Shown here: piece after piece, positions 2,367-34,027 of the stretch
How the letters are laid out: each line of letters starts with the position of its first letter
Position numbering within the stretch: the stretch's first letter is position 1
Source: an uncultured Bacteroidota bacterium
Lineage (GTDB): Bacteria; Bacteroidota; Bacteroidia; Bacteroidales; FEN-979
Direction: 5' to 3'
Length of the DNA stretch: 36,340 nucleotides
NCBI GenBank assembly: GCA_937900965.1
Contig: CALCGJ010000143.1
Span: forward strand, 1 to 36,340
Notes under the pieces: generated by a model
What the model saw: the letters and a program-made list of their open reading frames with translations, nothing else
What the model was told of the DNA's origin: nothing
Database searches by the model: none
Program-made: the position numbers and the translations under genes

Positions 2367-3602
2367 TTGAAATCTCCTGAAATCACCGCCCCCGTCGGAA
2401 CCTGGGAATCTCTTTCTACTGCCATCCAGGCTGGTGCGGATTCTGTTTATTTTGGGGTTGGAGTGTTAAATATGCGGGCCCGCTCTTCAATCAACTTTAC
2501 GCTCCGTGACTTAGTAAAAATTACGCGGATTTGCAGGAAGCACCAGGTAAAAACCTATCTCACGGTAAATACGGTCATCTTTGATGCCGAGGTCGGGGAG
2601 ATGAAGCGGATCGTGAATTCGGCTAAGAAGAATGGCGTTGATGCTATCATTGCTTCCGACCAGGCGGTTATCCAGTATGCACGATCGGTTGAAATGCCGA
2701 TACACATGTCAACCCAGACCAATATCACAAATCTGGAAGCAGTGAAGTACTGGTCGCAATTTGCCGACGTGATGGTTACCGCCAGGGAGCTTAATGTCGA
2801 TCAGGTGGCTTCCATCGTTCGTGCTATCAAGCGTCAAAAGATTACAGGTCCGTCAGGCGAGCCGGTCAGGCTGGAACTGTTTGCCCACGGCGCCCTCTGT
2901 ATGGCGGTATCAGGCAAATGTTACCTGAGCCTGGATCAATACAACGCCTCTGCCAACCGTGGTTCGTGCTACCAGCTTTGCCGCCGTCCATACCGGGTAA
3001 CCGATTTCGACGGGGAGGTAGAGCTGGTGGTTGATAACGAATATATCATGTCGCCCAAAGATCTCTGTACCATTGGTTTTCTGGATAAAATCGTATCAGC
3101 AGGGGTGTCTGTTTTGAAAATCGAAGGCCGGGGAAGAAGTCCGGAATATGTGAAAACCGTTGTCTCCTGCTACCGCGAAGCCATTGACGCGATTGCCGCA
3201 GGTAGTTATTCAAAAGAGCTGGTCGATATGTGGCTTGACAGGTTGAAAACAGTCTACAACCGTGGTTTCTGGGATGGTTACTACCTGGGACAAACCATGG
3301 GTGAATGGGCCGGACAGCATGGTTCTGATGCTACACAGTCAAAAGTATACATTGGAAAGGTGACCAACTACTTCACCAACCTGAAAGTTGCAGAAATCAA
3401 GCTGGAATCCGGATTCCTGGCATCCGGGGACAAGATTTACATCCAGGGGCCTACCACTGGTGTGATTGAGATGACAATACCTGAAATAAGGGTAGACCTG
3501 AAGCCAGTTAAAAAGACTAAAAAAGGAGAGGTCTGCTCGATCCCTGTCCCTGAGTTCCTGCGCAGAGCAGATAAAATCTATAAAATCATTGAAAAAAATT
3601 AA
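2367..3602 (+). CDS. Peptidase U32 family protein, probable tRNA hydroxylation protein (TrhP-like)
   Basis: The protein opens with ITAPVGTWESLSTAIQAGADSVYFGV, broken here as ITAPVGTWESL and IQAGADSVYFGV, the classic start of U32 proteins. It continues with LNMRARSSINF, MSTQTNITN and KIEGRGRSPEYVKTV. Four cysteines lie in CMAVSGKCYLS and RGSCYQLC, the set that binds an iron-sulfur cluster in TrhP/RlhA relatives. Although named as peptidases, characterised members act in prephenate-dependent hydroxylation of tRNA U34 (TrhP) or rRNA (RlhA). The start is uncertain: no ATG lies before the conserved N-terminus, and a TTG at 2367 gives 411 residues just downstream of a good -7 element. A TTG at 2316 would fall upstream of the predicted transcript start. 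It is followed after 25 bases by the PHP gene. Confidence 0.85.
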   Translation: MKSPEITAPVGTWESLSTAIQAGADSVYFGVGVLNMRARSSINFTLRDLVKITRICRKHQVKTYLTVNTVIFDAEVGEMKRIVNSAKKNGVDAIIASDQAVIQYARSVEMPIHMSTQTNITNLEAVKYWSQFADVMVTARELNVDQVASIVRAIKRQKITGPSGEPVRLELFAHGALCMAVSGKCYLSLDQYNASANRGSCYQLCRRPYRVTDFDGEVELVVDNEYIMSPKDLCTIGFLDKIVSAGVSVLKIEGRGRSPEYVKTVVSCYREAIDAIAAGSYSKELVDMWLDRLKTVYNRGFWDGYYLGQTMGEWAGQHGSDATQSKVYIGKVTNYFTNLKVAEIKLESGFLASGDKIYIQGPTTGVIEMTIPEIRVDLKPVKKTKKGEVCSIPVPEFLRRADKIYKIIEKN

Positions 3603-3627
3603 CCGCCAGGGCATCGAAGGGAGTTTC

Positions 3628-4521
3628 ATGGGAAACTTACATACCCACACCGAGTTCAGCGACGGCTCCTCTCCCCCGGAAAACTATATTGAAGAAGCTG
3701 AAAAACTTGGATTTTCTGTTCTCGGTTTTTCAGATCATTCACCGGTTCCATTTCCAAATACATTCGCAATTCCTGAGGGAGGACTGCCGGCTTATGTTGA
3801 GGCGATAACTACATTAATGACCCCTCCTAGCCTCCCCTTGAAGGGGAGGAGTAAGTCCCCTTCAGGGGATTTAGGGGTAAATCCGGAATACGGAATCCAG
3901 ATCCTTCTCGGTCTCGAATACGACTACATCCCCGGTCTGACTGCATCCGTCAGAAATCTCCGCGAAGAGTATCAGTTCGATTATATCATCGGCTCGGTGC
4001 ACCTGGTCCGCAACAGCCATCCTGATCTGCTCTGGTTCATCGACGGTCCGAAGGTAAAGACATATGACAAAGGTCTTCGTGATGTGTTTGGGGGTGATAT
4101 AAGGAAAGCTGTAACCGCTTACTGGAGACAGCTCCAGGAGATGATTGTTCAGGAACAACCTGATATAATCGGTCATCTTGACAAAATAAAAATGCACAAC
4201 CACGACCGTTATTTCCGTGAAGATGAGCCCTGGTATGTTGCCCTGACTGAGGAGACCCTTGAACTGATCCGGCAAAAAGGATCTGTAGTGGAAGTTAACA
4301 CGAGGGGAATCTATAAGCAACGATCCGACACTCTTTTTCCGGGGCCTGAATTGCTGAAAAAAATTCTCGCACGCAGAATCCCGATTACCCTGACTTCCGA
4401 TGCACACAAACCCGAAGAGCTCTCTCTCTTTTTCCCGGAAGCAAAAGAGGTCCTAAAAAGTATCGGATTCAATTCGCTTTGGACCTTAACATCAGGTGGC
4501 TGGGCGGAAACAGCGATATAG
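3628..4521 (+). CDS. PHP-domain phosphoesterase, histidinol-phosphatase type, with in-frame palindromic insert
   Basis: The metal-binding motif MGNLHTHTEFSDGSS lies at the very N-terminus, followed by LGFSDHSPVPFPN, GLEYDYIPG, IIGSVHLV, IIGHLDKIK, VEVNTRG and TSDAHKP. These supply the histidines, glutamate and aspartates of the trinuclear metal site of PHP histidinol-phosphatases (HisK/HisJ type). The likely reaction is dephosphorylation of histidinol phosphate in histidine synthesis. No other his genes are nearby, so a different phosphate monoester is possible. I use the ATG at 3628 because it places the first motif at residues 5-7, while an earlier TTG would overlap the U32 stop. The oddity is a stretch of about 22 residues (64-85) encoded by a palindromic repeat element, sitting in the linker between YVEAITTL and EYGIQILLGLEYD. 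The frame stays open and all metal ligands remain. Confidence 0.85.
   Translation: MGNLHTHTEFSDGSSPPENYIEEAEKLGFSVLGFSDHSPVPFPNTFAIPEGGLPAYVEAITTLMTPPSLPLKGRSKSPSGDLGVNPEYGIQILLGLEYDYIPGLTASVRNLREEYQFDYIIGSVHLVRNSHPDLLWFIDGPKVKTYDKGLRDVFGGDIRKAVTAYWRQLQEMIVQEQPDIIGHLDKIKMHNHDRYFREDEPWYVALTEETLELIRQKGSVVEVNTRGIYKQRSDTLFPGPELLKKILARRIPITLTSDAHKPEELSLFFPEAKEVLKSIGFNSLWTLTSGGWAETAI
3815..3882. repeat. Palindromic element inserted in frame in the PHP gene
   Basis: The element holds two hairpins inside an outer stem. Hairpin one is CCTCCCCTT (3831-3839), one centre base, then AAGGGGAGG (3841-3849). Hairpin two is TCCCC (3856-3860), TTCA, GGGGA (3865-3869). The outer pair is ACCCCT near 3820-3825 with AGGGGT at 3873-3878. 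Only this one of the three forward frames is free of stop codons across the element. A related copy occurs at 21466-21528. Confidence 0.85.
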
Positions 4522-21465: not shown

Positions 21466-21528
21466 TTAATGATGACCCCTCCCTTAATCCCTCCCTTTCA
21501 AGGGGAGGGGCTGGGGTGGGGTCATTTA
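21466..21528. repeat. Palindromic element after tRNA-Ala (related to the one in the PHP gene)
   Basis: The outer arms ATGACCCC (21472-21479) and GGGGTCAT (21518-21525) enclose an inner hairpin of CCCTCCCTTT against AAGGGGAGGG. The left part, from TTAATGA through CCCCTCC to AAGGGGAGG, aligns with the element at 3815-3882. The right arm supplies the TGA stop of the CYTH gene on the minus strand. It may also terminate the tRNA transcript. Confidence 0.8.
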
Positions 21529-33865: not shown

Positions 33866-33907
33866 CAGTTGGCAGTTGGCAGTATGCAGTAGGCAGTTCG
33901 CAGTCTA
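33866..33907. repeat. Degenerate 7-bp tandem repeat AGTNNGC-type after mreD
   Basis: Six heptamers read AGTTGGC twice, then AGTATGC, AGTAGGC, AGTTCGC and AGTCTAC. Reverse-complemented, the unit is GCNNACT, the same unit as the ACTGCNN array at 470-514. Confidence 0.85.
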
Positions 33908-33968: not shown

Positions 33969-33976
33969 ACAAGACT

Positions 33977-34027
33977 CACCAACTCACCAGTTCACCAGTT
34001 CACCAACTCATCATTTCACCATCTCAC
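33977..34027. repeat. 8-bp tandem repeat CACCANNT, six copies
   Basis: The units read CACCAACT, CACCAGTT, CACCAGTT, CACCAACT, CATCATTT and CACCATCT, with a partial CAC. A fixed CACCA is followed by two changing bases and T. It ends at the terminator hairpin. Confidence 0.85.

Follow-up and report, generated by a model that had tools for sequence, protein, structure and literature searches.

The palindrome inside the PHP phosphatase gene is best supported as a non-autonomous, REP-like pair of hairpins that sits in a repeat-tolerant loop of the protein. We lean, with somewhat better than even confidence, toward a fuller account in which this pair is a gene-less miniature of units that carry a DUF559 gene, and has been spread by DUF559. 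The window, i.e., the whole 36,340-nucleotide stretch that was analysed, is contig C143 of a 3.79-Mb genome (301 contigs, completeness 96%). The gene lies in an open frame at 3589..4521 on the plus strand, with ATG 3628 as the likely start, and encodes a PHP/HisJ family phosphatase (histidinol-phosphatase HisJ-type; matches to TIGR01856 and PF02811).

The initial annotation described a two-hairpin palindrome translated in frame in this gene, and direct reading bears this out. The element spans 3816..3881 on the plus strand, adds 22 codons (translated MTPPSLPLKGRSKSPSGDLGVN), and is composed of two hairpin units with outward heads, in the layout AATG-ACCCCTCCTAG-hairpin CCTCCCCTTGAAGGGGAGG-AGTAAG-hairpin TCCCCTTCAGGGGA-TTT-AGGGGT-AAA. 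The left unit (3820..3849, plus strand) is made of the head ACCCCTCCTAG and the hairpin CCTCCCCTTGAAGGGGAGG. After the AGTAAG spacer, the right half comprises the hairpin TCCCCTTCAGGGGA and TTTAGGGGT; read on the minus strand, the right unit (3853..3878) is ACCCCTAAATCCCCTGAAGGGGACTT, a 26-mer found Bacteroidota-wide. The hairpins themselves occupy 3831-3849 and 3856-3869; ACCCCT (3820-3825) and AGGGGT (3873-3878) form the outer arms. As a single strand, the element outfolds its shuffles (z of -2.65 and -2.74, equalled by 3 and 0 of 200 shuffles). The coding frame, MTPPSLPLKGRSKSPSGDLGVNP, is the one open forward frame; the other two hit TGA and TAG. An Rfam search of the window found two tRNAs and no RNA family at the element.

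Copies of the element are dispersed through the genome. BLAST with the element gave 53 matches, the PHP copy included; the best two other copies share its ends and are 92-94% identical to it over 63-66 bases. Counting the core hairpin pattern gave 81 occurrences at 60 sites, compared with one for the reversed control pattern. Given these counts, we do not regard the element as a chance repeat. Like REPs, it is a palindrome of 20-40 bp with many dispersed copies that are mostly extragenic: about 10 of the 60 sites lie in frame within identified genes, in a tally that leaves out copies that break genes. The copies have a conserved head, ACCCC(T/C)AAA, and neither GTAG nor CGTC, the tags of the two known REP superfamilies, was seen in them; we therefore call the element REP-like. 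Neighbouring units within 200 bp are mostly head-out (44, with 6 and 4 in the same direction and 0 head-in), and paired units are commonly 40-63 bp apart, start to start. Head/stem base combinations (TTA 248, CCG 44, others 6) fall into just two states, which we read as two subfamilies; head-stem covariation was rejected as evidence of pairing for that reason. The relative that had been noted at 21466-21528 is a real hairpin of similar type (z about -4, assigned to neither strand), but it is single and intergenic, just after a tRNA and by the 3' end of a CYTH-like gene, with no BLAST match, and is at most a distant cousin of the PHP element.

Does the element interrupt a protein that would otherwise be compact? 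The orthologue survey covered 61 genomes (the source genome and 60 relatives), of which 46 match the PHP gene. The gene was found in three congeners, and all three have a similar-length, unrelated linker at the position of the element: GCAGTTG-type repeats with GGCATCC units in one, AAGGGTC, AATCAAC, and GAGATCG units in another, and GCAGTTG, GGCATCC, and TCATCCAG units in the third. Other members of the family have shorter linkers, which vary among them. The initial annotation had named two observations that would count against an insertion, an unrelated linker of similar length in orthologues across the phylum and a lack of other copies; the former is found in 3/3 congeners, but other genome copies exist. 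Since congeners fill the same place with linkers of similar length, the 22 residues are not merely an insertion into a compact protein. Because those linkers are short tandem repeats, and the linker is shorter and variable beyond the genus, the better reading is that the site is probably a repeat-tolerant loop, holding different repeats in different species. AlphaFold2, run on the PHP alignment (mean pLDDT 89.5), models the insert as a disordered coil between helix 66-77 and strand 103-112, with pLDDT of 47-55 in the insert and mostly >90 elsewhere; by this model, the element would occupy a surface loop. In all, the idea of a spreading palindrome tolerated in surface loops survives in that the element is repetitive, patchy, in frame, and in a modelled loop, but not as a simple insertion.

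Two further loops follow the same pattern. The KsgA loop of the source genome holds the palindrome plus heptamers and the PrmA loop holds the palindrome, sister species have other repeats in both, and nearly all outgroups have a few residues there. Against family outgroups, KsgA, PrmA, and PHP each have an in-frame insert with shorter orthologues, as in Rickettsia palindromic elements (RPE). Because all three loops hold different repeats in sister species, survival of the inserts appears to be set by loop tolerance and not by a DNA target. The repeat type differs per congener in KsgA (L293, L294) and PrmA (L323-L325, L332), the types being the palindrome, GGCATCC, TCATCCAG, CAGGGGCA, and TCACCAGT.

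In-frame copies in the source genome are hosted by UvrA (two sites), HolB, PrmA, KsgA, MurF-Alr, and PHP, as well as NifS-SelD (an array of four hairpins), a cytochrome c, and a hydroxyproline-dehydratase-like glycyl radical enzyme; NCBIfam and Pfam matches flank most of these inserts on both sides. Among 87 hairpins in congeners there are 24 open frames, a few of which are spurious overlaps, with hosts that include MurG, MtaB, PurL, CysN, a UbiD-like decarboxylase, and NifS-SelD, and with a ValS insert in two species. Palindromes in terminal, short, or overlapping ORFs (L119, L125, L134-L136, L438, L447, and a minus-strand frame in L422) are probably not real inserts and were not counted. The UvrA and HolB inserts are common to two species; since DNA identity between the genes of these species is mostly 60-80%, some of the inserts probably have a long history. 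In-frame copies that are stop-free, frame-preserving, and located in loops are presumably those that survive selection. In three genus genomes (L112, L409, L425), the NifS-SelD inter-domain linker is built of palindrome copies.

Beyond the genus, the element is patchy. Searching the exact 26-mer across 84,980 species genomes, we found that all 80 record titles among the matches listed are Bacteroidota. The core hairpin is present in 6/6 genus genomes, 0/31 other family members, and 4/24 order genomes, and a longer pattern of the hairpin is found in 2/394 genomes of a phylum sample. A distribution this uneven points to arrival by horizontal transfer or to rapid loss. Of 100 exact copies in named genomes, 8 fall within long frames, among them MnmE and, in the isolate Flavobacteriaceae PS02338, ArgC (genes named from sequence). 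Several contigs of a viral collection also have in-frame copies; in four of them (L464, L470, L473, L475), TPKSPEGDL occurs in frame several times per large protein.

What could spread such an element? One locus in which a palindrome and a DUF559 gene were neighbours led us to run an association test. To our knowledge, DUF559 is not a known transposase. Among 113 loci selected by the palindrome alone (836 kb), 10 hold DUF559, with 11 genes in total (leaving out L150 and a second partial match in L199), where about 0.25 were expected from the density in relatives; each has a palindrome within about 330 bp. The Poisson P for 11 genes is <1e-13, a value that ignores relatedness, and two of the loci share a hisA-hisF site. 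Under a fixed hairpin definition, hairpins lie on both sides in 13/30 DUF559 loci, compared with 0/10 Y1_Tnp loci and 0/69 housekeeping controls. Co-occurrence at the genome level is moderate (Fisher P 0.047, Spearman rho 0.51). All nine members that were checked (9/9) match the DUF559 Pfam profile (PF04480) above cut-off, and the closest fold matches are 3hrl and I-Bth0305I, a homing endonuclease, i.e., the fold is that of a nuclease of Vsr/EDxHD type. A DUF559 protein of Caulobacter has been described as Vsr-like (PMC12907096), and another paper assigns DUF559 to the EDxHD homing family (PMC9403480).

The units around DUF559 genes, each a head plus a hairpin, are of the same kind as those of the element. 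Hairpins near-identical to the left unit flank DUF559 genes in G032, G034, and the congener G003, and right-type units flank them in named genomes and, among congeners, in G001 only. A DUF559 unit has the architecture of the element with a gene between the hairpins, e.g., ACCCCTAAATCCCCTAAAGGGGACTT - gene - AAGTCCCCTTTAGGGGATTTAGGGGT in L259, and the inverted ends of the element are shared with DUF559 units; in MITEs, the terminal inverted repeats are those of an autonomous transposase unit. Family genomes that are free of the element have other palindromes, e.g., CCCCTTCTCCT..AGGAGAAGGGG, on both sides of DUF559, and a second DUF559-flanking family is dispersed in up to 34 copies. Different DUF559 genes carry different hairpin families, on both sides and near the ORF ends, as expected for units with cognate ends. 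At the hisA-hisF junction of eight Pedobacter genomes, the unit is present in five (L383, L385, L386, L388, L390) and missing in three (L384, L387, L389); the site shows either a gain or a loss of the unit. Cultured species that carry it include P. fastidiosus and P. cryotolerans. Where present, the Pedobacter DUF559 frame runs open into hisF. In L244, L358, L365, L368, and L370, the downstream palindrome encodes the C-terminal residues of DUF559, whose open frame stops within the palindrome or a short way beyond it.

A DUF559 search of the source genome, a fragmented MAG, found none, and 5/5 congeners have at least one. The absence may be an assembly gap, since 16 of the 60 element sites sit ≤300 bp from contig ends. 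The 17 viral loci with the palindrome have no DUF559, and neither activity, excision, nor a target-site duplication was observed. DUF559 on plasmids was uninformative, as the named hosts are mainly of other phyla and all matches are <60% identical.

We infer, as a proposal and not as proof, that DUF559 mobilises the element. The element would be a gene-less miniature of hairpin-bracketed, single-gene DUF559 units, and DUF559 acting at hairpins, together with host recombination, would copy or insert both units and miniatures. Such a system would play the same role as RAYT/REP, but through an enzyme of unrelated type. It is tempting to extend this to a palindrome-spreading system of Bacteroidota, in which DUF559 takes the RAYT role, gene-bearing units and gene-less pairs both spread, and the pairs repeatedly become loops of essential enzymes; we hold this broader version tentatively, as rather less than an even bet.

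The main rival casts DUF559 as a homing-type passenger that lands in palindromes, while the host itself spreads the palindromes (by template switching, gene conversion, or hairpin-primed replication). The structural nearness of DUF559 to a homing endonuclease fits it, as do a source genome rich in palindromes with no DUF559 detected, and loops also filled by tandem heptamers and octamers, for which no nuclease is required. However, a passenger does not readily account for the hairpin families, which differ between DUF559 genes and lie near the ORF ends on either side, nor do host processes alone obviously explain the prevailing head-out pairing. We judge it unlikely, though a serious contender. 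Alternatively, there may have been no insertion event in PHP at all, the palindrome being one of many chance fillers of a hypervariable linker that grows and turns over by slippage and recombination. The similar-length other repeats of congeners in the PHP, KsgA, and PrmA loops are what this would predict, but copies elsewhere that are 92-94% identical with shared ends argue for a discrete element, and the KsgA and PrmA loops are mostly short outside the genus, which leaves this explanation improbable.

Much the same low probability attaches to movement of the element by a RAYT-type (Y1, IS200/IS605-like) transposase, as in classical REPs. The anatomy of the element is like that of REP pairs, Y1_Tnp is common in the order (48/61 genomes), and Bacteroidetes-specific members of RAYT subclass 2.6 with atypical hairpins have been described (PMC6006769). 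Yet Y1_Tnp (PF01797) is missing from the source genome and from three congeners, with weak matches in two; of the 31 family members outside the genus, none has the element, though most have Y1_Tnp; and none of the 10 Y1 loci examined is bracketed by hairpins. Genome searches and the locus test thus leave Y1_Tnp unsupported as the driver.

Several known systems come close to the element and the DUF559 units. REPs read in frame are on record for Rickettsia, Opitutus, Thauera, and others (PMC3733652), so the in-frame aspect is not a new kind; the comparison with Rickettsia made in the initial annotation is apt, but the phenomenon extends to several more phyla. RPE and intragenic GTAG and CGTC REPs are likewise short in-frame palindromes in housekeeping genes, often dimers or groups of 20-30 residues, with uvrA and tRNA-synthetase genes hit there too. 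Unlike them, the element is found in Bacteroidota without a GTAG or CGTC tag, and sister species fill the same loops with tandem repeats unrelated to it. The enzyme link also differs: DUF559 is associated with the element, whereas GTAG REPs have RAYT, and CGTC-type palindromes, among them RPE-4 and RPE-6 of Rickettsia, are described as having no dedicated enzyme (PMC3733652). REPtrons resemble DUF559 units in that a single gene is bracketed by hairpin units with copies dispersed in the genome, and gene ends can overlap palindromes, but their enzyme is an HUH tyrosine transposase and not a Vsr/EDxHD-type nuclease. EDxHD homing endonuclease genes (I-Bth0305I) share the nuclease fold and the presence or absence of a single-gene unit at an orthologous site; in contrast, DUF559 units have palindromic ends and dispersed gene-less copies, and lie between genes, none being seen in an intron or intein. 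Literature searches by sequence motif and for DUF559 with palindromes found no description of the element and nothing relevant, respectively; both are weak evidence, since most subscription journals were outside their scope.

The DUF559 association provides a concrete, testable enzyme candidate for Bacteroidota palindromes and, if true, DUF559 would be a new enzyme class behind RAYT-less REP-like repeats. The genus illustrates clearly how mobile and tandem repeats turn into protein sequence, and anyone calling or annotating genes in such genomes should expect to meet inserts of these repeats often. The other loop fillers recall the heptanucleotide repeats of Cyanobacteria, Bacteroidetes, and Beggiatoaceae (PMC4679880), with which we compared the genus types GGCATCC, CAGTTGG, and AAGGGTC; that paper describes TAACTGA repeats that lie mainly between genes, whereas the genus heptamers are also translated in palindrome-bearing loops. 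Within the window, tandem arrays at 417-509, 33866-33904, and 33974-34027 consist of heptamers and octamers of GTGAAAC, ACTGCCA, CAGTTGG, and TCACCAGT types, kinds that also occupy protein loops in congeners.
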